Source: Bradyrhizobium sp. CB1717 (GTDB lineage: Bacteria > Pseudomonadota > Alphaproteobacteria > Rhizobiales > Xanthobacteraceae). From it: DNA of 64,000 bases. A program made the translations under genes and the position numbers. This document shows positions 21,481 to 37,360 of this stretch, in pieces. The notes under the pieces were generated by a model that had not been told where the DNA came from, ran no database searches, and was given only the letters and a program-made list of their open reading frames with translations. The stretch is from positions 3,224,001-3,288,000 of the forward strand of contig NZ_CP121666.1 of assembly GCF_029714325.1 (NCBI RefSeq). Reading direction: 5' to 3'. Every line of letters starts with the position of its first letter. Position 1 is the first letter of the stretch.

Positions 21481-21516
21481 GACGTGCCTCCGAACCTCGC
21501 GCCTCGCCGGTCTCGC

Positions 21517-22721: not shown

Positions 22722-23639
22722 ATGAATCGCCTCCAGGCCATGGAATTGTTCGTCAGCGCCGTGCGCGAGGGCAGCTTCTCGGCTGCCGGCCGCCGCGTCG
22801 GGCTCTCGCCGGCGTCGGTGTCGCGCTATATCGGCGAGCTCGAGGCGCAGCTCGGCGTGCAGCTCCTGAACCGCAGCACGCGCCATCTCGGATTGACCGA
22901 TGCCGGCAAGATCTTCTTCCAGCGCACCGAGCAGGTGCTGCACGGCATCGAGGATGCCGAAGCCGCCGCGCTCGCGCTGCAGACCGCGCCGCGCGGAACG
23001 TTGCGGGTGCACTCGCGGACGCTGTTCGGCATCAAGGTGCTGTCGCCGCTGATCCCGGGCTTCCAGAAGCTCTATCCGGAGCTGAAAGTGGAGCTGCGCC
23101 TGTCCGAGCGGCGCCCCCAGCTTCGCGAAGATGAATTCGACGTCGACTTCCAGATTCAGGCGGCGAAAGACCCGGCCCTCATGCAGCGAAGGCTGCTGAG
23201 GAGCGAGCGGATTCTCGTGGCTTCACCGGACTATGTCGCCCGGATGCCGAAATTGCGCGAGCCGGAGGACATCACCCGCCACCATTGCCTGACCTACTGG
23301 ATGGGACCGGACGACGTGGTCTGGAAGTTCATGCACAGGAACAGGCTGCGTGAGATCGTGGTGCCGTCATCCTTCAGCAGCAACAACGGGGTGGTGCTTT
23401 GCGATCTCGCCGCCGGCGGGCACGGCATCGCCCTGCTGGATGATTACACCGTGGCGGAGGAGTTGAAGCGTGGCCGCCTGATACGTCTGCTGCCGGGTTT
23501 CCGGGTGACGAACTCCACCTTCGACGAGGGCATGTATGCGACGTTTCTCCAGAGCAGCTATCTGCCGGAAAAGATCAGGGTGTTCGTGGACTACATGGCG
23601 GAGCACGTGCCGAAGCAGGTCAAGAGATCGGCGCGGTAG
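22722..23639 (+). CDS. LysR family transcriptional regulator
   Basis: A 305-residue LysR protein. The N-terminal winged HTH reads MNRLQAMELFVSAVREGSFS, AAGRRVGLSPASVSRYIGEL and LGVQLLNRSTRHLGLTDAG. The effector domain contains RGTLRVHSRTLFGIKVLSPL and NNGVVLCDLAAGGHGIALLD. ATG 22722 is the usual LysR start. It is divergent from the luciferase-like monooxygenase operon, which is its probable target. Confidence 0.92.
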   Translation: MNRLQAMELFVSAVREGSFSAAGRRVGLSPASVSRYIGELEAQLGVQLLNRSTRHLGLTDAGKIFFQRTEQVLHGIEDAEAAALALQTAPRGTLRVHSRTLFGIKVLSPLIPGFQKLYPELKVELRLSERRPQLREDEFDVDFQIQAAKDPALMQRRLLRSERILVASPDYVARMPKLREPEDITRHHCLTYWMGPDDVVWKFMHRNRLREIVVPSSFSSNNGVVLCDLAAGGHGIALLDDYTVAEELKRGRLIRLLPGFRVTNSTFDEGMYATFLQSSYLPEKIRVFVDYMAEHVPKQVKRSAR

Positions 23640-23648: not shown

Positions 23649-24533
23649 CTAGCCTGGGCCGAATCTGTGCGCCGGCAGTCCGCGAACGCAGAGCCCTTCG
23701 ACGGCGAACAGGCCGCCGGCATCGGGGTGATCGTCGGCGAGCGCGTGGCTGCGCGAGATCGATGTCACGTAGAGAACATCGAGATCGGGGCCGCCGAAGC
23801 ACACGCTGGTCGGATGACGGACCGGCATGTCGATCGTCCGCACGATCTCTCCGTCCGGCGCAAACCGCGCGATCTTGCCGATGCGCACCAGCACGGACCA
23901 GATATGACCGTCCGCATCGACCGTTGCACCGTCGCAGCCGGACCCCAGCGCTTCCGTGTCGATGAAGACGCGCTTGTTGGCGAGGGGGCCGTCTGCCCTG
24001 TAGTCATAGGCCCAGATGATCCGCCTTGCGCTGTCGGCGATGTAGAAGGTCCGTCCGTCCGGGCTGAAGCACGGTCCGTTGCTCACGGCGAGGTCCGTCT
24101 CCAGGAGTTGCAGCGTGCCCTTTGCGTCCAGCCGATAGAGGCCGCCGAGCGGCGCCTCATCGGGAGCACGATCGCCGTGCATCGTACCTGCGAGGAAGTT
24201 GCCCTGGGGATCGGCCTTGCCGTCGTTCAGCCGCACCTTGGGGTGGTCGAGCCCGATCGATGGGCCCTCCGTCAGCGCGCGTTTATCGAAATCGTAAGCC
24301 GCAAATCCGTTGCGCAGGGCGAGGACCGCGCCGCCGTTGCCTCGCAACGCCAGCGAGCCGATCGGCGCGGGCACGCTGAACTGCTCGGTCGCGCCGGTCG
24401 CTGGGTCTAGCGCGTGGATCAATCCGGCCAGAGAGTCGATCCAGTAGAGGCACTGCCCGCGCTCGTCCCACACCGGGCTCTCGCCGAGCAGGTCCCTGGT
24501 CGCGCCGAGGCGCCTGATGCGGACTGCGCTCAT
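23649..24533 (-). CDS. SMP-30/gluconolactonase family protein
   Basis: A 294-residue six-bladed beta-propeller of the SMP-30/LRE family. The first metal ligand lies in DLLGESPVWDERGQCLYWID; later blades show VRLNDGKADPQGNFLAGTM, AVSNGPCFSPDGRTFYIADS and GSGCDGATVDADGHIWSVL, which contain the expected Asn and Asp ligands. The family hydrolyses sugar lactones and other lactones with a divalent metal. It is divergent from a TetR gene, and the TetR-type palindrome at 24562 sits in the shared promoter region. A lactone in the pathway encoded downstream would fit. Confidence 0.87.
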   Translation of the reverse strand: MSAVRIRRLGATRDLLGESPVWDERGQCLYWIDSLAGLIHALDPATGATEQFSVPAPIGSLALRGNGGAVLALRNGFAAYDFDKRALTEGPSIGLDHPKVRLNDGKADPQGNFLAGTMHGDRAPDEAPLGGLYRLDAKGTLQLLETDLAVSNGPCFSPDGRTFYIADSARRIIWAYDYRADGPLANKRVFIDTEALGSGCDGATVDADGHIWSVLVRIGKIARFAPDGEIVRTIDMPVRHPTSVCFGGPDLDVLYVTSISRSHALADDHPDAGGLFAVEGLCVRGLPAHRFGPG

Positions 24534-24561
24534 GGTTCCTTCCGCGGGAATCGCCGGACTT

Positions 24562-24573
24562 GACCGATCGGTC
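24562..24573. promoter_or_regulatory. Probable TetR operator, copy 1
   Basis: The perfect palindrome GACCGATCGGTC lies 28 bases upstream of the SMP-30 gene start and 59 bases upstream of the TetR start. It is extended by an upstream T and a downstream half-repeat (TGACCGATCGGTCGGTGA). The same core occurs twice more at 26357 and 26433 and I did not find it elsewhere in the window. Confidence 0.75.
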
Positions 24574-24632
24574 GGTGAAAACCTAGTTTCATTCTAAAGA
24601 CTCTTCTGGCTGACGAATGGATTGCGGAGTTC

Positions 24633-25307
24633 ATGACTGAACTGTCAACGATGAAGGACGGTGTTGCGAACCAGGCCGAGGCCTCGGACCGCGTGCTGCA
24701 GATCCTCGCCGAGGCCGGGCGGCTGTTCGCCAGCAAGGGTTTCGAGGGCACTTCGATGCGCGACATCGCGCTCGCCTGCGGCATCTCCAAGTCGCTGCTC
24801 TATCATCACTTCTCCAACAAGGACGAGATCTATGCACGCGTCGCGGTCGGCTCGACGCTCGAGCTCTATTTGTTCGTGCGCGACCGGATTCCTGACGGGC
24901 CGCCATCGCAGAAGATCCGCGCGTTCATGGTCGCCACGGCGGAATATTTCCGCCGGTACCGCTGGGCCTGGATCGCCTCGACGACCGCGTTCTGGAACGA
25001 CCCCGATCGCCAGCGGCACAAGGAGCGGCTGACGCGCCGCGACCGCTTCGAGAACTTTCTGCGCGGCCTGATCCAGGAAGCGATCGATGCCGGCGAGATC
25101 CGCAAGGTCGATGTCCCCATGACCGGCCGGCTGATCCTGTCCTCGCTCAACTGGATGCATCGCTGGTACAATCCCAACAAGTCCGCGACCCCCGAGCAGA
25201 TCGCGGAGATCTTCTTCGACATGATCTTCAACGGCCTGCGCAGCGGCGAGCTTGTCGAACTTCCGGCGACGGAGCCGCCCAAGGCCGGCCGGCGCAAATC
25301 GCGCTGA
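24633..25307 (+). CDS. TetR/AcrR family transcriptional regulator
   Basis: A 224-residue TetR protein. The HTH is ILAEAGRLFASKGFEGTSMRDIALACGISKSLLYHHFSNKDEIYAR (about residues 24-70). The C-terminal part is all-helical, with a TetR_C-like YRWAWIASTTAFWNDPDRQR and GRLILSSLNWMHRWYNP. ATG 24633 is used; a Met at codon 7 is possible. A palindrome with GACCGATCGGTC core lies in its own promoter and in the promoter of the downstream catabolic run, so it is the likely repressor of the whole block, released perhaps by a CoA ester. Confidence 0.9.
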   Translation: MTELSTMKDGVANQAEASDRVLQILAEAGRLFASKGFEGTSMRDIALACGISKSLLYHHFSNKDEIYARVAVGSTLELYLFVRDRIPDGPPSQKIRAFMVATAEYFRRYRWAWIASTTAFWNDPDRQRHKERLTRRDRFENFLRGLIQEAIDAGEIRKVDVPMTGRLILSSLNWMHRWYNPNKSATPEQIAEIFFDMIFNGLRSGELVELPATEPPKAGRRKSR

Positions 25308-25329
25308 CCGGGCGGGCGGCGGCCGCGCC

Positions 25330-26307
25330 TTACTCCAGAACGATGTTCTGCGCCTTGATCACCGGCCCCCAGAGCGCGGCGTCCTTGGTCAACTGGGCGT
25401 CGAGCCGTTCCGGTGCTCCGGTATCCACCATCAGGCCGTCGGTCTCGAGCTGCTTTGCGATTTCCGGCTTCTGCATAGCAGCGTTGGCCCCCGCGTTCAG
25501 CCGCGCGACCACGTCGCGCGGCGTGCCCGCGGGCGCGTGCAGGGCGGTCCAGAACGAGGCCGTGAGGTCGGGATAGCCGGCTTCGGCCAGCGTCGGTATC
25601 TCTGGAAGGCTCGCCATGCGCTTTTCGGAGGAGACCGCGAGGATGCGGAGCTGACCGCCGCGCGCATGCTCGATCACGGCGGCGGGCGTTGCGAAATTGA
25701 GATCGCACTCCCCCGACAGCGTCTCCATGATGGAGGCCGGATTGTTGCGATAGGCGACCTCGGTGACGGCAAATCCCATCGACTTGCCCATCATGATCCC
25801 GAACAAATGCGTGACGCTGCCCGGACCGAGCGTGGCGTAGAACAGTGGCTTGTCGCGGCCCTTGGCGTAGGCGACGAAGCTCTTGACGTCGGTGGCCGGC
25901 GTGCGCGCGTTCACGGTCAGTGACAGCGGCCCGTTGCAGAGCATGGCGACGGAGGCGAAGTCCTCGAGCTTGTAGGGCAGGTTCTTGCGCAGCAGGACGT
26001 TCAGCGAAATCGGCCCGGTGCCGCCGGCCAAGAGAACCGATCCGTCCTTCGGCGCGCGCGCGACGTATTGCGATCCGACGATGCCGTTGGCGCCCGGCTT
26101 GTTGTCGACCAGGACCGGCTGGTCCAGGCTTTCCGCCATCGCTTTCGCGATCGAGCGCATCAGGCTGTCGATGGAGCCGCCCGGCGCATAAGGCACGATG
26201 ATGAAGATCTGCGACGCGCGCGCCCGGACGATTGCAGGCGCGCCAAGCGGCGCGGCGAGAGCGCCGGCGATCAGAGCTGTCGCCTGGCGTCGGCTGATCC
26301 TGGGCAT
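25330..26307 (-). CDS. tctC: Tripartite tricarboxylate transporter substrate-binding protein
   Basis: A 325-residue Bug/TctC periplasmic binding protein. The N-terminus PRISRRQATALIAGALAAPL has a twin-arginine-like signal. The mature part begins IFIIVPYAPGGSIDSLMRSI with the ligand-loop pattern and continues with VDNKPGANGIVGSQYVARA and ATLGPGSVTHLFGIMMGKS. It binds a carboxylate for import by TctB and TctA, which lie at the far end of the divergent operon about 9 kb away. Two operator copies separate this gene from that operon, so all three are likely co-regulated. Confidence 0.9.
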   Translation of the reverse strand: MPRISRRQATALIAGALAAPLGAPAIVRARASQIFIIVPYAPGGSIDSLMRSIAKAMAESLDQPVLVDNKPGANGIVGSQYVARAPKDGSVLLAGGTGPISLNVLLRKNLPYKLEDFASVAMLCNGPLSLTVNARTPATDVKSFVAYAKGRDKPLFYATLGPGSVTHLFGIMMGKSMGFAVTEVAYRNNPASIMETLSGECDLNFATPAAVIEHARGGQLRILAVSSEKRMASLPEIPTLAEAGYPDLTASFWTALHAPAGTPRDVVARLNAGANAAMQKPEIAKQLETDGLMVDTGAPERLDAQLTKDAALWGPVIKAQNIVLE

Positions 26308-26356
26308 GGAAATCCTCCTCGAGCGTCGTTCTTGCTTGCCGCGAAATCTATCGGCT

Positions 26357-26368
26357 GACCGATCGGTC
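26357..26368. promoter_or_regulatory. Probable TetR operator, copy 2
   Basis: GACCGATCGGTC again, 49 bases before the tctC start. The wider sequence TGACCGATCGGTCGGTCA (26356-26373) can also be read as TGACCGA-TCGG-TCGGTCA, a second overlapping palindrome. Confidence 0.75.
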
Positions 26369-26432
26369 GGTCAATAGGTGAGACGCAGTATGTTGCAAGT
26401 CGCCGCAGTTGGTGTTATCAGCACAAAAAGCT

Positions 26433-26444
26433 GACCGATCGGTC
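26433..26444. promoter_or_regulatory. Probable TetR operator, copy 3
   Basis: The best palindrome of the three, TGACCGATCGGTCA (26432-26445), ends 52 bases before the enoyl-CoA hydratase start. It is 76 bases from copy 2, close to seven helical turns, so the two copies lie roughly on one face of the DNA. Confidence 0.78.
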
Positions 26445-26496
26445 AGGCCGTCGAGACGGCGCAAGCAATACGAACAGAAGCCAACGGAGGAAGCCC

Positions 26497-27267
26497 ATGT
26501 CAGGAGATATCGTCACCCTCGAAGTGTCCGATAACATCGCGCTGGTGACGCTGAACCGGCCTCCGGTGAACGCGCTCGATCGTGCCATGCGCGACCGCAT
26601 CGTCGCGGTGTTCGACGAGATTTCCGAGCGCCAGGACGTCAGGGTCGCGATCCTGACCGGCGCCGGAAAGGTGTTCTGCAGCGGCGCGGATCTGAAGGAC
26701 CGGCCGGACCCGACCAAGATCGGCGCGTTTCACAGCCACAACCGCATCACGCGCGAGACCGGCAATTGCATCCGCGAATGCGCGAAGCCCGTCATCGCGG
26801 CGATCAACGGTGTCGCGCTGGGCGCCGGTGTCGGCCTGATGGCCTCCTGCGACATCTTCTACGCCTGCGAGGAAGCCGTCTTCGGCATGCCCGAGATCAA
26901 CGTTGGCCTCGCCGGCGGTGCAGCGATGCTGAATACGCTGTTCGGCCGCTCGCTGATGCGCCGGATGTTCTTCACCGGCTATCGCGTGCCGGCCGCCGAG
27001 CTCTATCGTCTCGGCATCATCGAGGCCTGCACCACCAAGGAGAACCTGCTCCCCGAAGCGATGAAGCTCGCGCGCGAGATCGCCTCGAAGAGCCCGATCG
27101 CGATGGAGTACGCCAAGAACGCGGCGAACATGGTCGAGCTGATGCCGCCGCGCGATGCCTATCGCTTCGAGCAGAACATCACGATGGCCCTGTCCAAGAC
27201 GGAAGACGCCAAGGAAGCGCGCATGGCGTTCCTCGAGAAGCGCGCGCCGGTGTTCAAGGGACGCTGA
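26497..27267 (+). CDS. Enoyl-CoA hydratase/isomerase family protein
   Basis: A 256-residue crotonase. It contains ALVTLNRPPVNALDRAMRDR, the oxyanion-hole segment VFCSGADLKDRPD, VIAAINGVALGAGVGLMASC and the catalytic-loop region AVFGMPEINVGLAGGAAML. The glutamate in PEINVGL matches one of the two catalytic acids of hydratases. It opens the long + strand operon after operator copy 3, with ribosome site AACGGAGGAAG before ATG 26497. It would hydrate an unsaturated acyl-CoA made by the dehydrogenases downstream. Confidence 0.9.
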   Translation: MSGDIVTLEVSDNIALVTLNRPPVNALDRAMRDRIVAVFDEISERQDVRVAILTGAGKVFCSGADLKDRPDPTKIGAFHSHNRITRETGNCIRECAKPVIAAINGVALGAGVGLMASCDIFYACEEAVFGMPEINVGLAGGAAMLNTLFGRSLMRRMFFTGYRVPAAELYRLGIIEACTTKENLLPEAMKLAREIASKSPIAMEYAKNAANMVELMPPRDAYRFEQNITMALSKTEDAKEARMAFLEKRAPVFKGR

Positions 27268-27268
27268 G

Positions 27269-29458
27269 ATGCGGCCGGGAGAGGGTCTCGACGCGCTGAT
27301 GTCGCCGCGCTCGATCGCGGTCATCGGCGCCTCGCAGGAAGCGACCAAGATCGGCGGACGGCCGGTCGATCTGCTGCGCCGTCACGGCTATGCGGGCCGC
27401 ATCTATCCGGTCAATCCCAGGGCCGCGACGGTGCAGGGGCTCAAGGCCTACGCCTCCGTTGCCGACCTGCCGGAGGCGCCGGATCTCGCCATCATCGCGG
27501 TCGATGCGGAGCGCGCGGGCGAGGCCGTGGAACAGTGCGCGGCCCGCGGCGTTCGCAGCGTCGTCGTGTTCTCGTCGGGCTTTGCCGAGCTCGGCGAGCA
27601 GGGCCGCGCGATGCAGGATCGGCTGCGCGTTGCTGCGCGGGGCAGCGGCATGCGCCTGTTGGGGCCGAACTGTCTCGGTGCGGTCAGCATCGCCGAGAAG
27701 AGCATCGCGACGTTCTCGATCGTGCTCGAGCACGGCATGCCGGCCGCCGGTTCGCTCGGCATCGTGTCGCAGAGCGGCAATCTCGGCAGCTACACCATGC
27801 GCCTTGCCAGCGAGCGCGGCGTCGGCGTCAGCCGCTTCATCACGACCGGCAACGAGTGCGACATCGACATTGCCGATGGCATCGCATGGATGGCACGCGA
27901 TCCCGCTACGAAGGTCATTCTCTGTGCTCTCGAAACCTGTCGCGACGCCGGCCGGCTGATCACCGCACTCGAAGAGGCGCGCGATGCGGGTAAGCCCGTC
28001 ATCGCCATCAAGATCGGAACATCCGAGGCGGGTCAGGCTGCGGCGGCCTCGCACACCGGAGCGATGGCCGGCTCGGATGCGGTGTTCGATGCGCTGTTTG
28101 CGCGCACCGGCGCGGTGCGCGTGCGCAGCATCGACGAGCTGATCGATCTCGGCCATGCCGCATCGATCCTGCTGCCGGACCGGTTGCCGAAAGGGCCTGG
28201 TATCGCGATCCTCACCGCATCGGGCGGCTTCGGCGTGCTGCTCGCGGACGCCGCTCAGGCGGTCGGGCTGACATTGCCGGAACTCGGCGGGGAGACGCAG
28301 CGCCAGATTCTGGAGCTCGTGCCCTTTGCGTCCGCCCGTAACCCCGTCGACGCCACCGCGCAGATGTCGAGCCGCCCCGATCTTCTGGAGAAGATCATGA
28401 CCGCCGTCGTGGCGGACGAGCGAACGGATACGGTGATCCTGCCGCTGCCGTTCTCGCTGCATCTGCCGCGCCTGCGCTCCATCTATATGGACACACTGCG
28501 CAACATGCGCGCGCAATTTCCTCACCGTCCGATCGTCCTCTGCGTCGACGGTCCCGAGGACGCGCTGGCCGAGCTGCATGCACTGGGCTTTCCGACGATC
28601 GCCAGCTTCGACGGATGTTGCGCAACTGTCGCCGCGCTGGCGCGGTTGCAGGCCGCGGCGCAGCGCCCGCAGGACAAGCCTGCGGCGGTCGCGCAGGCGG
28701 CACCGCTTGCTGCCGACGCCTTTCGTCATGAGCTTGGTGCCAAGCGCGCGCTTGCCGATGCCGGGGTGCCGGTGCTGGCCGAGCGTCTCGTCCAGGATGC
28801 GGACGCCGCCGCGCGTGCCGCCACCGAGATCGGTTATCCCGTGGTGCTGAAAATCGCCTCGCCCGACCTGCCGCACAAGACAGAGGTCGGGGGCGTAGTC
28901 GTGGGCCTCGGCTCGGAAGCCGACGTCCGGCGCGCCTATGCCCAGATGCGCGATCGGGTCGCCACCAGGGCGCCCAATGCAGTGATCGACGGTGCGATCT
29001 TGGCGCCGATGGCCAAGGGCGTCGCCGAGCTGATCCTCGGCAGCCGCATCGATCCGGTGTTCGGGCCGGTGGTGATGGTCGGTCTCGGCGGCATCTTCGC
29101 GGAGATCCTGCAGGACACCGCCGTGCAGATGGCGCCGGTCAGCGAGGCGCAGGCCATGGCGATGCTGAAATCGCTCAAGGCATTCGCGGTGCTCGACGGC
29201 GCGCGCGGGCGGCCGCGCGCTGACCTCGACGCCGCGGCGCAAGCCGTCGCCGCGTTGTCGCGCTTTGCCGCCGCCAATGCCGACACGGTCGCGGAAATCG
29301 ATGTCAACCCGCTGCTGCTCCGCGCCAGGGGCGAGGGCGCCGTGGCGCTCGACGCGCTGCTGATCCCGCATGGAGAGCGGCCGGTCGGGGTCACTGAACT
29401 CAACGAAAAAGAGGCCGCAGAAGCGGGCCCAGAGGAAACGCAAGGAGCAGGAGGATAG
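27269..29458 (+). CDS. Acyl-CoA synthetase (ADP-forming), fused alpha-beta type
   Basis: A 729-residue ADP-forming CoA ligase. The N-terminal CoA-binding domain runs from SPRSIAVIGASQEATKIGG to RLLGPNCLGAVS, followed by ligase-CoA domains with LGIVSQSGNLGSY and the phosphohistidine motif SHTGAMAGSD (His262). The C-terminal ATP-grasp part starts near HELGAKRALADAGVPVLAER, with GYPVVLKIASPDLPHKTEVG. It activates a carboxylic acid to its CoA thioester, the logical first step after uptake. It starts 1 base after the hydratase stop; the frame is open upstream but inside that gene. Confidence 0.9.
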   Translation: MRPGEGLDALMSPRSIAVIGASQEATKIGGRPVDLLRRHGYAGRIYPVNPRAATVQGLKAYASVADLPEAPDLAIIAVDAERAGEAVEQCAARGVRSVVVFSSGFAELGEQGRAMQDRLRVAARGSGMRLLGPNCLGAVSIAEKSIATFSIVLEHGMPAAGSLGIVSQSGNLGSYTMRLASERGVGVSRFITTGNECDIDIADGIAWMARDPATKVILCALETCRDAGRLITALEEARDAGKPVIAIKIGTSEAGQAAAASHTGAMAGSDAVFDALFARTGAVRVRSIDELIDLGHAASILLPDRLPKGPGIAILTASGGFGVLLADAAQAVGLTLPELGGETQRQILELVPFASARNPVDATAQMSSRPDLLEKIMTAVVADERTDTVILPLPFSLHLPRLRSIYMDTLRNMRAQFPHRPIVLCVDGPEDALAELHALGFPTIASFDGCCATVAALARLQAAAQRPQDKPAAVAQAAPLAADAFRHELGAKRALADAGVPVLAERLVQDADAAARAATEIGYPVVLKIASPDLPHKTEVGGVVVGLGSEADVRRAYAQMRDRVATRAPNAVIDGAILAPMAKGVAELILGSRIDPVFGPVVMVGLGGIFAEILQDTAVQMAPVSEAQAMAMLKSLKAFAVLDGARGRPRADLDAAAQAVAALSRFAAANADTVAEIDVNPLLLRARGEGAVALDALLIPHGERPVGVTELNEKEAAEAGPEETQGAGG

Positions 29459-29459
29459 A

Positions 29460-30689
29460 ATGAGGAGATTGACGATTGCGGCGCTCGGCATGATTGCCTT
29501 GTTGTTCGCGCACGCGCCCCTGTCCGCACAGGGCATCTCGGGCGACGTCGTCAAGATCGGCATCATGAACGACCAGAATGGTCCCTATGCCGACAATTGC
29601 GGTCTCGGTTCGGTCGCGGCCGCCAAGCTGGCGGTCGCCGATTTCGGCGGAACGGTTGGCGGCAAGAAGATCGAGCTCGTCATCGCAGACGACCAGAACA
29701 AGCCAGATGTCGGCGTCGCCATCGCCATGCGCTGGGTCGACAATGAAGGTGTCGATGCCATCGTCGGCTGCTCGGCCTCGTCGATCGCGCTTGCGGTGCA
29801 GGAAATCATGAAGAACCGCAAGAAGCCCTACATGCTGGCCGGCACGGCGGGCTCGTTCTTCACCAACGACAAATGCTCTCCGATGACCACCCAATGGGTG
29901 GTCGATACCTATGCGCAGCCGAAGGCCACGGTGAAGGCGCTGCTCGCGCAGGGGGTCGACAGCTGGTTCTTCCTGACCGTCGATTACGCCTTCGGCAAGG
30001 CCTGGCAGTCGGATGCGACCAATTTCATCAAGGCCGGCGGCGGCAAGGTGGTCGGCTCGGTGCTGCACCCGCTGAATGCGTCGGATCTGTCCTCGTTCCT
30101 GCTGACGGCGCAGGCCAGCGGCGCCAAGGCGATCGCGCTCGCCAATTCGGGCTCTGATTTCGCCAATGCGATCAAGCAGGCGCAGGAATTCGGGCTGAAC
30201 AAGTCGCAGTTGCTCGTTCCTCTCGGCCTCATGATCAGCCAGACTCACGGGATTGGTCTGAAGGACCTCCAGAACGTCCGGCTGACGACGCCGTTCTACT
30301 GGGATATGACCCCGGAGAGCCGGGCCTTCGCCAAGCGATATGCCGAGGCGACGGGCGGTCAGCTGCTCAACGAGGGCAAATCGGCCACCTACAGCGCCAT
30401 CACGCACTATTTGAAGGCGGTGGCCGCGGCCGCTTCCGACGATGGCGATGCCGTGATGCGGCAGATGAAGAATACGCCGGTCAACGATTTCGAGATGAAG
30501 AACGTCAGCATCCGGGCCGACGGGCAGGTGATGCGTCCGCTCTATGTCGCGCGGATCAAGACACCGGCGGAATCCAAATACACCTACGACTATTACGAGA
30601 TCACCGGCACGATCGCGCCCGAGGATGCGTGGCGGCCGGCCTCGGAGAGCGCCTGCGACCTTCTCAAAGTCGCAGTGAAGAACGAATAG
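29460..30689 (+). CDS. ABC-type (branched-chain amino acid family) substrate-binding protein
   Basis: A 409-residue periplasmic binding protein. The signal peptide is MRRLTIAALGMIALLFAHAP with cleavage near SAQG. The mature domain begins VVKIGIMNDQNGPYADNCGL and contains VDAIVGCSASSIALAVQEIM and FLTVDYAFGKAWQSDATNFI, as in LivK-type proteins for aromatic or branched acids. ATG 29460 follows GGAGCAGGAGGATAG. No ABC permease or ATPase gene lies in this operon, so it must work with components elsewhere or act as a sensor-type binding protein. Confidence 0.88.
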   Translation: MRRLTIAALGMIALLFAHAPLSAQGISGDVVKIGIMNDQNGPYADNCGLGSVAAAKLAVADFGGTVGGKKIELVIADDQNKPDVGVAIAMRWVDNEGVDAIVGCSASSIALAVQEIMKNRKKPYMLAGTAGSFFTNDKCSPMTTQWVVDTYAQPKATVKALLAQGVDSWFFLTVDYAFGKAWQSDATNFIKAGGGKVVGSVLHPLNASDLSSFLLTAQASGAKAIALANSGSDFANAIKQAQEFGLNKSQLLVPLGLMISQTHGIGLKDLQNVRLTTPFYWDMTPESRAFAKRYAEATGGQLLNEGKSATYSAITHYLKAVAAAASDDGDAVMRQMKNTPVNDFEMKNVSIRADGQVMRPLYVARIKTPAESKYTYDYYEITGTIAPEDAWRPASESACDLLKVAVKNE

Positions 30690-30734
30690 CCGGCAGGACT
30701 TGACGGTGCGTATGGCGAAAGCGGGAAGCAGGCG

Positions 30735-31946
30735 ATGAGTGTACTTGAAGCGGTATCGACGCAATCCGTCGCAGGTGAGAACCTGACGGGCGAAGCCTAT
30801 CGCGATGCGATGCATCGCTGGCTGAATGCCCATCTGCCCGCCAGCTTCCGCAGCGACAGCGCCGCGTTCGCGGCGCCCTCGCTGCAGCAGTCGGTGGCCT
30901 GGGAGGCGGCGATGTACCGCGCCGGCCTCACCGGCATCACCTGGCCGCAGGCCTATGGCGGGCACGGCCGCTCCTTGCGCGAACATCTCGTCGCCAATCA
31001 GGAGATCGGCCGGCTGGCGATGCCGGAAAGCGTCAACTCGATCGGCAAGGAGCTTGCCGGCCCGATCATCCTGGCGGTCGGCACCGAGGAGCAGAAGCGG
31101 CGTTTCCTGCCCGCGATCCTCGAGATGCGCAACATCTGGTGCCAGGGCTTTTCCGAGCCCGAAGCCGGCTCCGACCTTGCGGGCCTGCGCACGCGTGCGA
31201 CGCGGGACGGTGACGGCTGGCGCATCAACGGCCAGAAGATCTGGACCAGCGGCGCCTATCGCGCGCAGCGCTGCCTGGTGCTCGCCCGCACCGGACCGCT
31301 GGAGGATCGCCATCGCGGCCTTGCCATGTTCGCGGTGCCGCTCGATGCCAACGGTGTGCGCGTGCGCACCATCAAGTCGATCGACGGTCGCGAAAGCTTT
31401 TGCGAGGTCTTCTTCGACGAGGTCGAGGTTGCCCAGGCTGACGCGATCGGCTCGCCCGACGAGGGCTGGGCCGCGGCCATCCGCGTGCTGGAGATCGAGC
31501 GGGCGACCAACCGCATGTATCGCGCCTGGCGCTTCGAGAACGAGCTGCGCCATCTGATCTCGGCCTGCAAGGCTGACACGGCGCTGTCGGCCATGGTTGC
31601 GGACCGGCACTATGCGGTCAGGCTCGGCGAGGTCGCCGTCGAGATCGAGGTGCTGAAGGCGCATGTCGAGACCGCCGTCGAGGCGCTCGCGAGCGGCGAC
31701 AAGATCGGCGCGCGCGGCAGTCTTGCAAAACTCTATTGGAGCGAATCGCATCAGCGCTTTGCCGCGCTCGCGATCGAATTGCTGTCGCAGGCATCGCTGC
31801 CGCAGAACCCCGCGATCAAGGTGGCGCGGCGACGGTTCGAGGCGATCTATCTCGCGGCCCGCGCCGAGACGATCTATGCCGGCACGACCGAGATTCAGCT
31901 CGGCATCATCGCCGACCGGATACTCCAGCTGTCGCGAGGCAAATGA
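30735..31946 (+). CDS. Acyl-CoA dehydrogenase, larger partner
   Basis: A 403-residue acyl-CoA dehydrogenase. It shows WPQAYGGHGRSLREHLVANQ, the FAD/substrate loop WCQGFSEPEAGSDLAGLRTR, GWRINGQKIWTSGAYRAQRC and the C-terminal AETIYAGTTEIQLGIIADRI. The usual catalytic Glu in the YEGT motif is Ala382 here (YAGT), as in some long-chain and heteromeric dehydrogenases. It is followed by an SDR with ATGA overlap, then a second, smaller dehydrogenase. A two-subunit enzyme like PimC/PimD is plausible. It would introduce the double bond hydrated by the first gene product. Confidence 0.88.
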   Translation: MSVLEAVSTQSVAGENLTGEAYRDAMHRWLNAHLPASFRSDSAAFAAPSLQQSVAWEAAMYRAGLTGITWPQAYGGHGRSLREHLVANQEIGRLAMPESVNSIGKELAGPIILAVGTEEQKRRFLPAILEMRNIWCQGFSEPEAGSDLAGLRTRATRDGDGWRINGQKIWTSGAYRAQRCLVLARTGPLEDRHRGLAMFAVPLDANGVRVRTIKSIDGRESFCEVFFDEVEVAQADAIGSPDEGWAAAIRVLEIERATNRMYRAWRFENELRHLISACKADTALSAMVADRHYAVRLGEVAVEIEVLKAHVETAVEALASGDKIGARGSLAKLYWSESHQRFAALAIELLSQASLPQNPAIKVARRRFEAIYLAARAETIYAGTTEIQLGIIADRILQLSRGK

Positions 31947-32716
31947 TGGCCTCCCAGGGCAAGGTCGCGGGCCTGCTGCACGATCGTCTGGTGGTGGTGA
32001 CGGGGGCTGGCCAGGGGATCGGACGTGCCATCGCGCTCGGCGTCGCCGCTGCCGGGGCGAGGGTGGTCCTGACCGATCTGCGGCAGGACCGGGCAGAGTC
32101 CGCCGCTCGCGAGATCAGGGACGGAGGCAAGGAGGCGGTCGCCTATTCCCTCGATGTGACGGATGCTGAGGCCTGTCGTGACGTGGCGAAACGCGTGGAC
32201 GAGGAGATCGGCCCCGCTGACGTCATCGTCAACAATGCCGGCATCATCATTCGCGAGTCGATCGACAGCGAGCGCGCCCACGAGAACTGGCGCCAGGTCT
32301 TCGACGTCAATGTCAACGGCACCTTCAACGTCGTTCATGCCTTCATCCCCGCGCTGCGCAAGACGCACGGGTCCATCATCAACGTTGCATCCGTGGCGGC
32401 CTTTGGCGGCATGAATGGAGCGCTCGGCTATTCGCCGTCCAAGGGCGCGGTGAGGCTGTTCACACAGGCGCTCGCCCGCGATCTCGCTCCCGATGGCATC
32501 CGCGTCAACGCTGTCGCGCCCGGCATCATCGCGACCGAGATGAGCGAGAGCACGCGCGACAATCCGGCGAGGCTGTCCGGGCTGATGGCGCGCACCCCCA
32601 TGAAGCGTGTGGGACAGCCCGACGAGATCGCGGGGCCGGTGATCTTTCTGGCGTCGGCGATGGCATCGTATGTCAACGGCGTCATCCTGCCGGTCGACGG
32701 CGGTTATCTCGCCTAG
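31943..32716 (+). CDS. Short-chain dehydrogenase/reductase
   Basis: A 257-residue classical SDR. The cofactor motif is VVVTGAGQGIGRAIALGVAA, VIVNNAGI is the NNAG motif, and the active site is VASVAAFGGMNGALGYSPSKGA with Ser and YxxxK. The C-terminus ASYVNGVILPVDGGYLA is canonical. The acidic residue in LTDLRQ after strand 2 suggests NAD+. The start overlaps the dehydrogenase stop (ATGATG). It could oxidise the hydroxyacyl-CoA made by the hydratase. Confidence 0.9.
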   Translation: MMASQGKVAGLLHDRLVVVTGAGQGIGRAIALGVAAAGARVVLTDLRQDRAESAAREIRDGGKEAVAYSLDVTDAEACRDVAKRVDEEIGPADVIVNNAGIIIRESIDSERAHENWRQVFDVNVNGTFNVVHAFIPALRKTHGSIINVASVAAFGGMNGALGYSPSKGAVRLFTQALARDLAPDGIRVNAVAPGIIATEMSESTRDNPARLSGLMARTPMKRVGQPDEIAGPVIFLASAMASYVNGVILPVDGGYLA

Positions 32717-32755
32717 TGAACGATTGTTGTCGCAAGGTATTCGAAGAGGACGAAG

Positions 32756-33781
32756 ATGAGCATGGCCGAAGGACTTCAGCCCGACGAGTTCGCGGCAACC
32801 GCGGCACGCGCAGTGACCGCATGTGCCGGTTTGGGCGTCCGCGAGCAGGCGCAAAATCTCGCCGGCGATGGTCTGCTCGGAATCATCGCGGATGAAGAGG
32901 TGGGGGGACTGGCCCTGCCGCTCGGTTTCGCGGTGCCGGTGATCGCCGCTGCTCACTCCGGTCTGCTCGGCTTTCCGCTGCTGGAGACCATTCTCGTCAG
33001 CCGCCTGCTCCAGTCGTCGCTGACGCGTCTTGCCGCCGCGATCGTGTCCGGCGAGAAGTTGGCAACGATCGCGTGGCAAGGTGAGGCTATTCCCGAACGG
33101 GACGGCGGGTTGCTGCTGCTGAATGGTTCCCTCGCGCGCGCTCCCAGCGCGGCGTCGGTCGACCATATCCTGGTGCGGATGAGCGGCGGCGCCGCGGCGC
33201 TGATCCCGGCCGACGCCAAAGGCGTTGTGGTGGAGGACGCGGCCGGCCTCGATCTGACGGTGCCGGAGCACGTGGTGCGGCTCGAGAAGGTCGAGGTTCC
33301 CATCGGCTCCATCCTGCCGCCCGGCACCTGGGATCTGCTCAGCTCGGATGCCAACGTGCTCCGTGCCGCGGCCATCCTGGGATCGGCCGAAGCATGCCTG
33401 GCGCTCGCGCAGGAGCATGCCTCGACGCGCCGCCAGTTCGGCCACGCCTTGTCCTATAACCAGGCCATCCGCCATGCGCTGGCGCGACAGAAGCTCGGCC
33501 TCGAGAGCATTCGTCATGCGATCACCCGCAGCCTGTCTAGGGATGGCGGCCCGGTGCAGCGCGATGCCGCGTTCCTGGCAGCGGTGACCTATGGCAGTTC
33601 GATCAGCGAAGGTGCGCTGCAGATCCATGGCGGCATGGGCTTCACGTGGGACGTGCCGGTGCATCGCCATCTGCGCCGCATCCGCACGCTCCAGGCCCAG
33701 GGTGATGCCAGCGGCCTGATCAGCAGGTTCGGCCGCAATTACGTATCGGAAGTTGCTCCGTTTGCCGAGGCAGGAGCGTGA
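32756..33781 (+). CDS. Acyl-CoA dehydrogenase, smaller partner
   Basis: A 341-residue acyl-CoA dehydrogenase-like protein, shorter than the usual 380-400. The central segment is weakly conserved (LNGSLARAPSAASVDHILVR in place of the usual loop). The C-terminal domain is clearer: AAILGSAEACLALAQEHAST, RRQFGHALSYNQAIRHALAR and QIHGGMGFTWDVPVHRHLRR. After that the expected IYEGTSEIQ element is absent (RIRTLQAQGDASGL), so it lacks the common catalytic Glu. It probably forms a heteromer with the larger dehydrogenase two genes upstream. Confidence 0.82.
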   Translation: MSMAEGLQPDEFAATAARAVTACAGLGVREQAQNLAGDGLLGIIADEEVGGLALPLGFAVPVIAAAHSGLLGFPLLETILVSRLLQSSLTRLAAAIVSGEKLATIAWQGEAIPERDGGLLLLNGSLARAPSAASVDHILVRMSGGAAALIPADAKGVVVEDAAGLDLTVPEHVVRLEKVEVPIGSILPPGTWDLLSSDANVLRAAAILGSAEACLALAQEHASTRRQFGHALSYNQAIRHALARQKLGLESIRHAITRSLSRDGGPVQRDAAFLAAVTYGSSISEGALQIHGGMGFTWDVPVHRHLRRIRTLQAQGDASGLISRFGRNYVSEVAPFAEAGA

Positions 33782-33792
33782 GGGAGACAGCC

Positions 33793-34566
33793 ATGACCGA
33801 AACCAGGGATCAGACGCTCGCAGGCCGCGTCGCACTCGTCACCGGCGCCGGAAACGGCATCGGCCGCGCAACCGCGCTCAAGCTCGCCGCGCGCGGCGCG
33901 ATCGTCGGCGTCAATGATTTGAAGCCCGAATTCGTCGATAGCACCGTGGAGGCGATCAAGGCAGCCGGCGGCGACGCCGTTGCCGTCACGCAGGACGTCT
34001 CCAGCCGCGACGGCATGCGGCAGGCGGTTCTGGGATTGGCGGAGAGTCAGAAGCGCTTCGACATCCTCGTCAACAACGCCGCATGGGTGCGCTATCAATC
34101 CGTCCCGGACATCGCTCCGGAAACCGTCGATCGCATGCTCAACATCGGCTTCAAGGCGATCATCTGGGGAATCCAGGCCGCCGCGGAGGTCATGAATGCC
34201 GAGCGCGGCGGCGCCATCGTCAACGTCGCCTCGGTCGCCGGCCTGATCTCGGCCAAGAACAGCATCGTCTACAGCGGCATCAAGGCCGGCGTCATGGGCA
34301 TCACGCGGGCGGCCGCGGCCGAGCTCGGCGAGCGCAACATCCGTGTCAATGCCGTCGCCCCTTCAGCGATTCCGACCGAAGGAACCATGCGCAATCGCAA
34401 CGCCGAGCTCGACGCGCGCCGCGTCGCGCGAACGCCGCTGGGCCGGCTCGGCACGGTCGACGACATTGCCAAGGCGATCTGCTTCCTCGCCGGCGACGAG
34501 GCCGGCTTCATCTCGGCGCAGGTGCTCACCGTCGATGGCGGCATCACCCTGACCAACATTGCCTGA
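33793..34566 (+). CDS. Short-chain dehydrogenase/reductase
   Basis: A second classical SDR of 257 residues. Motifs are ALVTGAGNGIGRATALKLAA, VGVNDLKPE (acidic, NAD+-type), ILVNNAAWVRYQSV, VNVASVAGLISAKNSIVYSG with IKAG completing YxxxK, and the C-terminal SAQVLTVDGGITLTN. ATG 33793 follows GGGAGACAGCC; a GTG at 33778 overlapping the previous stop (GTGA) is possible too. It is distinct from the other SDR of the operon, so two different hydroxyl groups may be oxidised. Confidence 0.9.
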   Translation: MTETRDQTLAGRVALVTGAGNGIGRATALKLAARGAIVGVNDLKPEFVDSTVEAIKAAGGDAVAVTQDVSSRDGMRQAVLGLAESQKRFDILVNNAAWVRYQSVPDIAPETVDRMLNIGFKAIIWGIQAAAEVMNAERGGAIVNVASVAGLISAKNSIVYSGIKAGVMGITRAAAAELGERNIRVNAVAPSAIPTEGTMRNRNAELDARRVARTPLGRLGTVDDIAKAICFLAGDEAGFISAQVLTVDGGITLTNIA

Positions 34567-34579
34567 CGGGGCTATCGCG

Positions 34580-35383
34580 ATGTCCGACCTGACGCCCGAA
34601 CAGCAGGCGCTGAAGGAAGCTTATGTCAAGGCGCGCGGCTATTGGCGGCCCTGGACCGAGGGCCTGCTGCGGCTCGATCCGGTGTTCCTCGAAGCCTACG
34701 GCAAATACGGCGGCTATGCCGCAGAGAAGGGACCGCTGTCTCGCAAGATGTGCGAGCTGATCTACGTCGCGCTCGATGGATCGGCGACGCATCTGTTCCG
34801 CCCCGGCCTCGCGCTGCACCTTCGCCTCGCGCTTCAGGAGGGCGCGACGGCGCGGGAGATCATCGACGTATTTCGCCTCGCGACGATGCAGGGGCTGGAC
34901 GGCTGCAACGTCGGTATCGGCATTCTGGCCGAGGAATTGGCTAACGCGGGCCTCCAGCCCGATCATTTCGAACTCACGAAAGAGCAGCTGGCGCTACGCG
35001 AAGCCTACGTCGCGCAATTCGGGGACTGGCCGGATTTCTGCGAGCAATGGCTGCGGAGCGATCCCGGTTATTTCGCCGCCCTGCTGGATCTCCTCGCCGA
35101 TCGGTCCGCAGGCGACGGCCTCGACCTGCGATCGCAGTGCCTGATCTCACTCGCGCTGAACGCCTGCTTCACCGCGCTCAATCCGCAAGGGCAGCGTGTC
35201 CAGATCAGGCGGGCGCTGCGGCTCGGCATTGAGCAGCGGGAGATTCGTCAGGTTCTCCAGATGGCCGCGCATCTCGGCGTGCATGCTTGCGCCATCGGCG
35301 TGCCGGTTCTGATGGAAGCCCTCGAGGAGCGCGCCGCGAAGGCCGGTGCAGGCGAGGGAGCGGGTGAGGGAGGACCGGAATGA
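34580..35383 (+). CDS. Two-domain carboxymuconolactone decarboxylase-like protein
   Basis: A 267-residue protein made of two repeats of the AhpD/CMD helical fold. Repeat 1 (about 1-125) contains LSRKMCELIYVALDGSATHL and ALHLRLALQEGATAREIIDV; repeat 2 (about 130-255) contains LDLRSQCLISLALNACFTAL and VQIRRALRLGIEQREIRQVL. The CxxC of AhpD-like peroxidases is absent in both, so a redox role is unlikely and a lyase/decarboxylase-like or structural role more likely. The tail is Gly/Glu-rich. It overlaps tctB by ATGA. Confidence 0.8.
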   Translation: MSDLTPEQQALKEAYVKARGYWRPWTEGLLRLDPVFLEAYGKYGGYAAEKGPLSRKMCELIYVALDGSATHLFRPGLALHLRLALQEGATAREIIDVFRLATMQGLDGCNVGIGILAEELANAGLQPDHFELTKEQLALREAYVAQFGDWPDFCEQWLRSDPGYFAALLDLLADRSAGDGLDLRSQCLISLALNACFTALNPQGQRVQIRRALRLGIEQREIRQVLQMAAHLGVHACAIGVPVLMEALEERAAKAGAGEGAGEGGPE

Positions 35384-35847
35384 AGGGATTGGCAATCCGC
35401 AATCACAGGGCCTTTGCCTCCGGCACCTTGTTCCTTGCCTTTGCAATCTTCTTCTTCGTGACGGCGCTGCAATACCCCGCAGGCACGGCCGCGAAGATGG
35501 GGCCGGGCTATTTCCCGCGCCTGCTCGCGATCGTGCTCGCCGCCATCGGTCTCGTCGTGATGTTCGGTGCGATGAAGCCGGCCGCGGACCGGCAGGTGTT
35601 GCGCGCATGGGACCTCAAGGGCCTCGCCTGGATCACCGGGTCCGTGATCCTGTTCGGTGCCCTCTTGTTTCCGCTCGGCCTGGTCGGCGCGTTGTTCGTC
35701 CTGATCATGGTGTCGAGCAGGGCGAGTGCCGAATTCACCTGGACCGGCGCGCTGACCAACGCGGCGGTGCTCATCCTGCTGTGCCTTGCCGTCTTCGTCT
35801 ATGGTCTCGGGCTGCCATTGCCCGTCTGGCCCTCCCTTCTCAACTGA
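35380..35847 (+). CDS. tctB: Tripartite tricarboxylate transporter small membrane subunit
   Basis: A 155-residue TctB protein with four predicted helices: ASGTLFLAFAIFFFVTALQY, MGPGYFPRLLAIVLAAIGLV, GSVILFGALLFPLGLVGALF and ALTNAAVLILLCLAVFVYGL. The AKMGPGYFPRLL segment is a family signature. It overlaps the previous gene (ATGA) and precedes tctA by 13 bases. With TctA it forms the inner-membrane part of the importer whose binding protein is encoded divergently at the other end of the block. Confidence 0.9.
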   Translation: MKGLAIRNHRAFASGTLFLAFAIFFFVTALQYPAGTAAKMGPGYFPRLLAIVLAAIGLVVMFGAMKPAADRQVLRAWDLKGLAWITGSVILFGALLFPLGLVGALFVLIMVSSRASAEFTWTGALTNAAVLILLCLAVFVYGLGLPLPVWPSLLN

Positions 35848-35860
35848 GCGAGCGGGATCG

Positions 35861-37360
35861 ATGGATCTCTTCCACAATCTGGCGATCGGCTTCGCCACGG
35901 CTGCCCAGCCCGCCAATCTGCTCTACGCCTTCTTCGGCTGCCTGCTCGGCACCTTGATCGGTGTGCTTCCCGGGCTCGGTCCGCTTGCGACCATCGCGAT
36001 GCTGCTTCCGATCACCTATGCGTTGCAGCCGGACGCCGCGCTGATCATGCTCGCTGGCATCTATTACGGCGCGCAGTATGGCGGCTCGACGACGGCCATC
36101 GTCGTCAATCTGCCCGGCGAGTCCTCCTCCGTCGTGACCACGATCGACGGCTACCAGATGGCCAAGCAGGGCCGCGCCGGCGTGGCGCTCTCAACTGCCG
36201 CCATCGGCTCCTTCTTCGCCGGATGCGTGGCGACGCTCGCTCTTGCAGCCCTCGCGGGACCGCTGACCGCGACCGCGCTGCTGTTCGGTCCCAAGGAATT
36301 CTTCGCGCTGATGATACTGGGCCTGATCCTTGCCTCGGTGCTGTCGAGCGGGCCGTTCATCGAGGGCATCGGCATGGTCGTGCTCGGCATGCTCCTGAGC
36401 CTCGTCGGCACCGATTTGAACAGCGGCAGCCAGCGTTTCGCCTTCGGCATTCCCCAGCTGTTCGACGGCCTCGATTTCGTGCCGCTGGCGATGGGCATCT
36501 TCGGCTTTGCCGAGATCGTCAAGAATCTCGAGCAGGACGACAAGCTGTCGCTGGTCACCCAGAAGATCACCAATTTGTTTCCGACCCGCGACGACTTCCG
36601 CCGCATGGTGCCGGCAATGCTGCGCGGCACGACGCTCGGCACGCTGCTCGGCGTTCTACCCGGCGGCGGCGCCGTGCTGTCCTCCTTTGCGTCCTACACG
36701 CTGGAGAAGAAGCTGTCGCGGCATCCCGAGCAGTTCGGCAAGGGCGCCATCGAAGGCGTTGCAGGCCCGGAGTCCGCGAACAATGCCGGCGCCCAGACCT
36801 CGTTCATCCCACTGCTGACGTTAGGGGTTCCCTCCAACGTCGTCATGGCGTTGATGGTCGGCGCCATGAACATCCACAACATCCATCCGGGCCCGGAGGT
36901 GATGACGAAGAACCCGACCCTGTTCTGGGGCCTGATCGCATCGATGTGGGTCGGCAATCTGATGCTACTCATCCTCAACCTTCCGCTGGTCGGGCTGTGG
37001 GTGAAACTGCTCACCATTCCCTATCGCTATCTCTTCCCCGCGATCATGGTGTTCTGCTCGATCGGCGTCTATTCCATCAACAGCGGAACGTTCGAGGTCT
37101 ATGAGGCGGCCGTGTTCTGCGTGTTCGGCTACATCCTGATCAAGCTGCAATTGCCGGCCGCGCCGCTGCTGCTGGGCCTGGTTCTGGGCCCGGCTATCGA
37201 GGAGAACTTCCGCCGCGCCATGGTGCTGTCGCGGGGCGATGCCACCGTGCTGCTGACGTCGCCGATCTCGGCGAGCCTCCTGGCCGCGGCCGCCATCGCG
37301 ATCATCCTGATCATTCTGCCGACGATCCGCGCGCGGCGCGAGGAGGCGCTCCAGGAATGA
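35861..37360 (+). CDS. tctA: Tripartite tricarboxylate transporter large permease
   Basis: A 499-residue TctA with about a dozen hydrophobic helices. The signatures are GTLIGVLPGLGPLATIAMLL, GIYYGAQYGGSTTAIVVNLP with GESSSVVT, and the second-half repeat GTLLGVLPGGGAVLSSFASY with AGPESANNAGAQTSFIPLLT. It imports a carboxylate delivered by TctC. It starts 13 bases after tctB and closes the operon. The frame extends upstream into tctB, but MDLFHNLAIGF is the natural start. Confidence 0.93.
   Translation: MDLFHNLAIGFATAAQPANLLYAFFGCLLGTLIGVLPGLGPLATIAMLLPITYALQPDAALIMLAGIYYGAQYGGSTTAIVVNLPGESSSVVTTIDGYQMAKQGRAGVALSTAAIGSFFAGCVATLALAALAGPLTATALLFGPKEFFALMILGLILASVLSSGPFIEGIGMVVLGMLLSLVGTDLNSGSQRFAFGIPQLFDGLDFVPLAMGIFGFAEIVKNLEQDDKLSLVTQKITNLFPTRDDFRRMVPAMLRGTTLGTLLGVLPGGGAVLSSFASYTLEKKLSRHPEQFGKGAIEGVAGPESANNAGAQTSFIPLLTLGVPSNVVMALMVGAMNIHNIHPGPEVMTKNPTLFWGLIASMWVGNLMLLILNLPLVGLWVKLLTIPYRYLFPAIMVFCSIGVYSINSGTFEVYEAAVFCVFGYILIKLQLPAAPLLLGLVLGPAIEENFRRAMVLSRGDATVLLTSPISASLLAAAAIAIILIILPTIRARREEALQE

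Follow-up and report, generated by a model that had tools for sequence, protein, structure and literature searches.

A Conserved Accessory Gene Unit of Bradyrhizobium and Other Genera That May Degrade an Organic Acid through a Ketone and a Lactone

Introduction

Here we describe a gene unit of Bradyrhizobium sp. CB1717 that carries a carboxylate transporter, coenzyme A (CoA) enzymes, a luciferase-like monooxygenase and a lactonase under a TetR-type regulator. It lies in a stretch of 64,000 nucleotides of the single-contig, 9.23-Mb genome (NZ_CP121666.1, positions 3,224,001-3,288,000, forward strand). This whole stretch is called the window, and all coordinates are positions in it unless a locus handle (L007 and so on) is given. 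The named relatives of the window proteins belong to Bradyrhizobium. An earlier note on this DNA proposed that the genes at 23649-37360 form an undescribed pathway in which an organic acid is imported, converted to its CoA ester, desaturated, hydrated and oxidized. Our results support a TetR-controlled organic acid pathway with CoA activation and a probable lactone intermediate. The literature that we searched, open-licence PubMed Central (PMC) articles and hence no proof of absence, yielded no description of the cluster. The note missed two things: the flavin monooxygenase, which best accounts for the lactonase, and the presence of the unit in many genera.

Genes of the Unit

All genes that had been named in 23649-37360 were found with intact frames in a check of the open reading frames (ORFs), and each has at least one Pfam family above its curated cut-off (SGL, TetR_N, TctC, ECH_1, the CoA-ligase domains, acyl-CoA dehydrogenases, short-chain dehydrogenases/reductases [SDRs], carboxymuconolactone decarboxylase [CMD], TctB and TctA). 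The features of the unit, from left to right, are as follows (ACAD, acyl-CoA dehydrogenase).

20598..20921, minus strand: probable N-terminal domain of the flavin reductase, a separate ORF of 107 residues (homology to a fused reductase)
20965..21480, minus strand: flavin reductase, proposed supplier of reduced flavin mononucleotide (FMN) to the monooxygenase (Pfam Flavin_Reduct, 141.7 bits)
21517..22599, minus strand: luciferase-like monooxygenase using reduced FMN (FMNH2), proposed type II Baeyer-Villiger-like oxygenase
22701..23639, plus strand: LysR regulator, divergent from the monooxygenase (Pfam)
23649..24533, minus strand: SMP-30/gluconolactonase-type lactonase (Pfam SGL, 279.9 bits)
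24561..24575: predicted TetR operator 1, between SMP-30 and TetR (exact match)
24633..25307, plus strand: TetR regulator (TetR_N, TetR_C_24)
25330..26307, minus strand: TctC/Bug binding protein of a tripartite tricarboxylate transporter (Pfam TctC, 172.5 bits)
26356..26370: predicted TetR operator 2, TctC side (exact match)
26432..26446: predicted TetR operator 3, crotonase side (exact match)
26497..27267, plus strand: crotonase-fold enzyme with one hydratase glutamate (NCBIfam NF005073, 431 bits, cut-off 296)
27269..29458, plus strand: fused ADP-forming acyl-CoA ligase (CoA_binding_2, Succ_CoA_lig, ATP-grasp_5)
29460..30689, plus strand: LivK-type periplasmic binding protein (Peripla_BP_6, 333.5 bits)
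30735..31946, plus strand: ACAD1, acyl-CoA dehydrogenase, presumed catalytic subunit (Pfam; Glu255)
31946..32716, plus strand: SDR1 (Pfam)
32756..33781, plus strand: ACAD2, acyl-CoA dehydrogenase-like, presumed non-catalytic partner (C-terminal Pfam domains only)
33793..34566, plus strand: SDR2, the core dehydrogenase (Pfam; Ser-Tyr-Lys triad)
34580..35383, plus strand: tandem CMD protein, proposed decarboxylase (Pfam CMD)
35380..35847, plus strand: TctB (Pfam, 62.2 bits)
35861..37360, plus strand: TctA permease (Pfam, 523.4 bits)

The limits first given for the unit were too narrow. Its left end lies at about 20598, and the split flavin reductase, the luciferase-like monooxygenase and the LysR gene occupy 20598-23639. 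The LivK-type protein between the ligase and ACAD1 was also missing from the earlier list; the cluster has no ABC permease. The tripartite transporter is complete, with TctA, TctB and TctC all present, and the ligase has the full domain set of an ADP-forming acyl-CoA synthetase (CoA-binding, Succ_CoA_lig and ATP-grasp) and reaches no specific NCBIfam equivalog cut-off. As had been stated, there is no thiolase among the genes identified in 23649-37360, and these do not make up a beta-oxidation spiral. The claimed lack of a ring-cleaving oxygenase holds for that interval and fails for the unit, since an oxygenase gene lies about 1 kb to the left. An Rfam scan of 20000-41000 gave nothing at the gathering threshold.

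Conservation of the Unit

Loci were collected by scanning the tandem CMD protein against a collection of species genomes. This gave 58 loci, of which four were too short and 54 were counted (22 from Bradyrhizobium and 32 from other genera). Crotonase, ACAD1, ACAD2 and SDR2 are present in 53 of the 54 and the ligase in 51. All 22 Bradyrhizobium loci have these five genes and the three transporter genes; among the other genera the first four are found in 31 of 32 loci and the ligase in 29. The set of ligase, dehydrogenases and CMD, whose joint occurrence had been put forward as a check, is conserved, except that CMD is absent from two roseobacter clusters. The constancy of CMD itself cannot be judged from loci that were picked with CMD, as this would be circular. 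The three roseobacter plasmid clusters came instead through the monooxygenase or ACAD1; in one of them, from Sulfitobacter W074, CMD is fused to a double SDR.

The left part of the unit travels with the rest. The monooxygenase was found in 55 of 55 searched genomes of the 58 CMD loci (best match, 66-98% identity), and all 20 regions fetched from relatives have the monooxygenase, the flavin reductase (within about 4 kb), the LysR gene and SMP-30 together, with LysR between the monooxygenase and SMP-30 each time. Within the genus, close orthologues of CMD (at least 72% identity), the monooxygenase (at least 86%) and ACAD1 (at least 83%) occur in exactly the same eight of 59 genomes, and three further genomes have distant CMD matches only. 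If kinship is ignored, one pair of sets with eight members each would coincide by chance with a probability of 1 in C(59,8), or about 5e-10. The unit recurs across Alpha- and Betaproteobacteria, in genera that include Variovorax, Achromobacter, Paraburkholderia and Sulfitobacter; many of the bacteria that carry it live with plants or in water. It is close to certain that the block is one co-regulated and co-inherited unit. Many genera share the gene set as a conserved accessory unit, and it is no peculiarity of one strain.

TetR Operators

The shared operators described earlier are borne out. Exact copies of the predicted operator TGACCGATCGGTC lie at 24561 (before SMP-30/TetR), 26356 (before TctC) and 26432 (before the crotonase gene). 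With up to two mismatches the window has eight matches against 1.34 expected, a number reached by none of 100 shuffled sequences. All 22 Bradyrhizobium loci keep two copies (at most one mismatch) in the gap between TctC and the crotonase gene, and a third copy lies between SMP-30 and TetR in all seven of those loci that reach that far. Among nine other loci whose TetR is at least 40% identical, six have a site (at most one mismatch) before the crotonase gene and three (L050, L088 and L092) have none. The Roseomonas locus L047 has one exact site.

Genome-wide, the exact 13-mer gives nine strand hits, four of which are the three cluster sites and five lie elsewhere. The latter were considered as further members of the regulon and rejected, because each lies beside the same 342-residue ORF of one repeated insertion element (L007, L008, L009, L014 and L015). 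From its ORF we read the element as IS110-like; the operator match falls inside a conserved stretch of it. Apart from the copies in mobile elements, the genome of the window has exact sites in this cluster only.

The Monooxygenase and Its Flavin Reductase

The monooxygenase starts at 22599, where its aligned relatives begin. The longer ORF, with a start at 22695, is unsupported because two Bradyrhizobium genomes have in-frame stops just upstream of 22599. The 107-residue ORF that ends the unit on the left has no Pfam match. Over 92 residues it shares 38% identity with the N-terminal region of a fused, 272-residue flavin reductase from Pseudosulfitobacter (L088), and a counterpart exists in 17 of the 20 fetched regions. 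The match to a fused two-domain protein suggests that the flavin reductase is probably a split gene, with this ORF as its N-terminal domain.

A luciferase fold with a separate flavin reductase, the combination that marks a type II Baeyer-Villiger monooxygenase (BVMO), is found here by Pfam, by fold and by the neighboring gene. The structure model is of moderate quality (mean pLDDT 78.2; the four other models of this study, 37-58). The nearest sequences and folds are those of bacterial luciferases and uncharacterized monooxygenases, and the model is closer to luciferase than to 4uwm. The predicted fold thus leaves the reaction undecided.

In Variovorax, two loci (L110, 7.7-11 kb, and L113, 9.5-13 kb) have two luciferase-like genes each, with TctC between them, and two monooxygenase matches are also seen in several further genomes. 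The paired Variovorax genes are perhaps two subunits, or enzymes for two substrates.

CoA Enzymes, Dehydrogenases, Lactonase and CMD

The residue counts given here cover all alignment rows kept, the window protein included, and the roles of the residues (the SMP-30 metal site as in regucalcin, and the crotonase, ACAD and SDR sites) are those that we presume. In SMP-30, the metal-site residues E18, N103, N152 and D201 are unchanged in 37 of 37 rows. The Ser-Tyr-Lys triad of SDR2 is unchanged in 58 of 58. In the crotonase, the slot of the first catalytic Glu is taken by Gly in 53 and by Ala in three of 56 rows, whereas the second Glu is present in all 56. Crotonases with both glutamate motifs are found among the proteins of L092 and L086.

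Glu255 of ACAD1, in a slot that we take to be of the isovaleryl-CoA dehydrogenase type, is unchanged in all 56 rows. At the two approximate catalytic slots of ACAD2, Glu occurs in only 5/56 and 4/56 rows. The two genes lie close together, and the catalytic Glu is conserved in one of them only, as in a heteromeric acyl-CoA dehydrogenase. The best match of ACAD1 in the PDB is 4x28_A (135 bits, a low similarity), whose family, like that of 6wy8, is presumably one of heteromeric steroid acyl-CoA dehydrogenases. Since ACAD2 also has C-terminal Pfam domains only, ACAD1 and ACAD2 are probably one heteromeric enzyme and not two separate steps, as the two dehydrogenases had been read at first. The sequence of desaturation, hydration and oxidation proposed in the earlier note is not supported in that form: besides the dehydrogenases, plain hydration is doubtful, because one hydratase glutamate, the first, is missing from every row. 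The score for the cyclohexanecarboxyl-CoA dehydrogenase model TIGR03207 stayed below its cut-off (78.2 bits against 575.4), as did that for pimC_large (190.3 against 623.9).

E59, H71 and H80 of the tandem CMD protein are unchanged in all 59 rows, and its model matches 2q0t (TM 0.85), titled a putative decarboxylase subunit. The CxxC motif of AhpD-type peroxidases occurs in only one of the 59 rows. More distant tandem CMD proteins were sought in 385 genomes of the class and 398 of the phylum; besides the present genome, seven gave a match, each of them from the class set. Four of their loci, from other Alphaproteobacteria (L137, L138, L139 and L141), have the gene near luciferase-like or class I BVMO genes. 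This suggests that the link of tandem CMD to oxygenases is wider than the unit, as evidence a weak one because the neighbors differ.

The SDR content varies. The 22 Bradyrhizobium loci have either SDR1 only (11), a double SDR only (six) or neither (five), never both, and the double SDR is present in 32 of 32 counted loci of other genera. SDR1 may have replaced the double SDR.

Sister Clusters and Rhizobial Plasmids

Some relatives of the unit include a homologue of class I BVMOs, which scores 548-580 bits to phenylacetone and steroid monooxygenases. This protein or its relatives accompany SMP-30 and acyl-CoA dehydrogenase homologues on plasmids from Novosphingobium (L090), Comamonas (L144) and Variovorax (L145). 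In Pseudosulfitobacter it adjoins the core without CMD. In Bradyrhizobium it directly follows TctA in five of 22 loci, and all five genomes also hold the luciferase-like enzyme. In Comamonas L144, the SDR that immediately precedes the BVMO shares 60% identity with SDR1 of the window, and the LivK protein of this BVMO cluster shares 53% with the LivK of the window. Some sister clusters also carry a lower pathway. Sulfitobacter plasmids extend the cluster with a CoA-transferase, a hydroxyacyl-CoA dehydrogenase, a third acyl-CoA dehydrogenase and a thiolase named PcaF, and in Bradyrhizobium TctA is followed by ACAD3 in nine and by a CoA-transferase in five of the 22 loci, each counted as a single match over 60% of the query.

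The monooxygenase also matches 111 plasmid records, 48 from Rhizobium, 47 from Sinorhizobium and eight from Mesorhizobium, with 103 of the 111 at 60-80% identity. In three of four rhizobial records, it belongs to a cassette that adjoins nodD2 or nif genes and has the order P450, ferredoxin (where present), SnoaL, double SDR and luciferase-like enzyme:

L087, 7977-13182: cassette with annotated ferredoxin
L089, 5735-11107: cassette with annotated ferredoxin
L091, 4307-9080: cassette, no ferredoxin annotated

The enzymes of the cassette belong to families that the unit and its relatives also use. The fourth record, from S. meliloti USDA1021, has only SnoaL and the luciferase-like gene, with a gene for 1-aminocyclopropane-1-carboxylate deaminase nearby. 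The SnoaL proteins of L087 and Pseudosulfitobacter share 62% identity. A tree of 17 sequences, built without an outgroup, places the three cassette enzymes in a group of their own (100/100), set with the Bradyrhizobium and Aquamicrobium monooxygenases (98/97). Passages of PMC3164228 mention a rhizobial P450 as expressed in bacteroids, without a function.

Proposed Pathway and Alternatives

We propose that the accessory unit serves to break down one organic acid, an alicyclic carboxylate most likely, in the order CoA ester, ketone and lactone, the last by a Baeyer-Villiger reaction. We hold this reading tentatively, at a probability of about 0.45. Its center taken alone, a Baeyer-Villiger oxygenation followed by the lactonase, is rather probable. 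The reactions, their order, the ketone and lactone and the alicyclic nature of the acid are drawn here from gene families, conserved residues, operators and conservation of the unit.

TctCBA would import the acid and the ADP-forming ligase would make its CoA ester, which the heteromeric dehydrogenase (ACAD1 catalytic, ACAD2 structural) would desaturate. The one-glutamate crotonase would then add water or shift the double bond, and SDR2 would generate a keto group. Tandem CMD, where present, may remove the carboxyl group or otherwise aid release of a cyclic ketone. The luciferase-like monooxygenase, with FMNH2 from the flavin reductase, would insert oxygen next to the carbonyl, before or after CoA activation. 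SMP-30 would open the lactone, SDR1 (elsewhere the double SDR) would oxidize the new alcohol, and beta-oxidation, whose genes some sister clusters carry, would complete the product. TetR would repress the SMP-30, transporter and crotonase-CMD units and probably has one of the CoA esters of the pathway as its ligand.

Several observations weigh against this scheme. The crotonase is short of one glutamate of a two-glutamate enoyl-CoA hydratase, and CMD, with 27.2 bits against a PcaC cut-off of 155.7, is not recognized as a 4-carboxymuconolactone decarboxylase. The CMD step is not universal, since no homologue is found in the stretches of Pseudosulfitobacter L088 and Sulfitobacter W027 (L092), two of the three roseobacter clusters, and neither plasmid is among those listed by the search with CMD. 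In the fetched stretches, only four of the seven distant tandem CMD loci show a luciferase-like (25-37%) or BVMO (45%) gene. The CoA block is missing near CMD in Ottowia (L068), the ligase in two Falsigemmobacter loci, and both SDR1 and the double SDR in the five of 22 Bradyrhizobium loci already counted. Sulfonate-, uracil- and aldehyde-oxidizing neighbors of the luciferase-like fold score at least as high as type II BVMO. Class I BVMOs have the fingerprint FxGxxxHxxxW; the homologue of L088 lacks its His and does not match. Finally, the genome of the window has no close homologue of the BVMO (46%) or of the CoA-transferase (best-scoring, 35%) of the sister clusters. Since RidA follows TctA here and a close CoA-transferase is lacking, the window copy is a reduced form.

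Of the alternatives, the one that survives best keeps the catabolic unit and gives the monooxygenase another task: it would hydroxylate, oxidize an aldehyde or open a ring with a heteroatom, as its relatives do, while the lactone for SMP-30 arises elsewhere in the route. In favor of this are the nearest sequences and folds, bacterial luciferases and uncharacterized monooxygenases, and the fold shared with RutA and sulfonate monooxygenases. The class I BVMO homologues in sister clusters and beside the same genes argue for Baeyer-Villiger chemistry instead, and we consider the alternative somewhat unlikely.

A pathway that attacks the side chain of an aromatic or branched acid is improbable. The crotonase would then act as hydratase-lyase or isomerase and CMD in a redox or accessory role, with no cyclic ketone. 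The single glutamate of the crotonase and the isovaleryl-type slot of ACAD1 presumably fit a branched acyl-CoA, CMD is not universal, and the interval has no thiolase; the joint travel of oxygenase, lactonase and class I BVMO would be left unexplained. That the unit is not catabolic at all and tailors a signal or secondary metabolite, as the rhizobial cassette linked to nod and nif genes may do with the same monooxygenase, SnoaL and double-SDR families, is very improbable in view of the uptake systems, the linked beta-oxidation genes and the many genera not known as symbionts that have the unit.

To return to the ketone-to-lactone scheme, a more specific form of it is unlikely as a whole. Here the acid would be an alicyclic carboxylate from plants or algae that is converted to a ring ketone on CoA and then handled by Baeyer-Villiger oxygenation and SMP-30. 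The luciferase-type and class I enzymes would be interchangeable or act in sequence, and the cassette near nod and nif genes would act on the same or a related compound in nodules.

Comparison with Known Systems

Camphor degradation uses a P450 with ferredoxin, an SDR, a type II diketocamphane monooxygenase and lactone opening. It shares with the unit an FMNH2-dependent oxygenase of luciferase fold with a separate reductase and the logic of ring ketone to lactone, and with the rhizobial cassette the P450, the SDR and (in two of three cassette loci) the ferredoxin. It differs in that the unit has CoA activation, a heteromeric acyl-CoA dehydrogenase, CMD and SMP-30. The cyclohexanone/caprolactone pathway, which uses a class I BVMO, resembles the unit in having a BVMO and a lactonase, and some sister clusters have the PcaF-named thiolase; the unit has carboxylate import and a CoA stage and no class I BVMO. 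The ali/bad pathway of Rhodopseudomonas palustris degrades cyclohexanecarboxylate, and as here a CoA ester, a dehydrogenase, a crotonase and an SDR act on a ring acid. Unlike it, the unit has an ADP-forming ligase, a heteromeric dehydrogenase and an added oxygenase and lactonase, and no second crotonase (a candidate BadI-type hydrolase) in the interval. The steroid heteromeric acyl-CoA dehydrogenases are alike in giving the best PDB match of ACAD1 and in having one subunit without conserved catalytic Glu, whereas their similarity is low and no other steroid genes were recognized in the cluster.

Passages of PMC11069340 on the ifc isoflavone cluster of Variovorax name Bradyrhizobium and Variovorax as its holders, both of which hold the present cluster too. 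The ifc pathway described there uses an FAD monooxygenase, a glyoxalase-type protein and cupins. It was rejected as an explanation, as these enzymes are of other families and none is among the genes of the interval. Abscisic or jasmonic acid as substrate, an idea prompted by Novosphingobium and rhizosphere bacteria, is neither supported nor excluded; passages of an abscisic acid paper gave no pathway genes.

Neighboring Genes

To the right of the unit, a RidA gene (37404-37754) starts 44 bases past the end of the TctA gene, followed by a molybdopterin S/N-oxide reductase at 38010-40406 (TIGR00509, 901.6 bits, below the cut-off of 1017.6). Both lie beside the unit in six of 22 Bradyrhizobium and none of 32 other loci, many loci being too short to show them. 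To the left lies an aldehyde dehydrogenase gene (19035-20516). In B. stylosanthis its 95% homologue (L034, 15618-17099) sits on the opposite side, flanked by ACAD3 and RidA, and the neighborhood of the unit has thus been rearranged. Farther away, two minus-strand ORFs (44314-47154, 946 residues, and 50134-52971, 945 residues) have similar N-termini and are apparently paralogous regulators.

Implications

If the proposed pathway is true, it would put a name to a conserved gene set, for a class of compounds that, according to the literature searched, has no assigned genes in these bacteria. It would also give a probable reaction to an unassigned subfamily of luciferase-like proteins and a possible one to the tandem CMD proteins. 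For the rhizobia, it would offer a handle on the P450 cassettes that adjoin their nod and nif genes.

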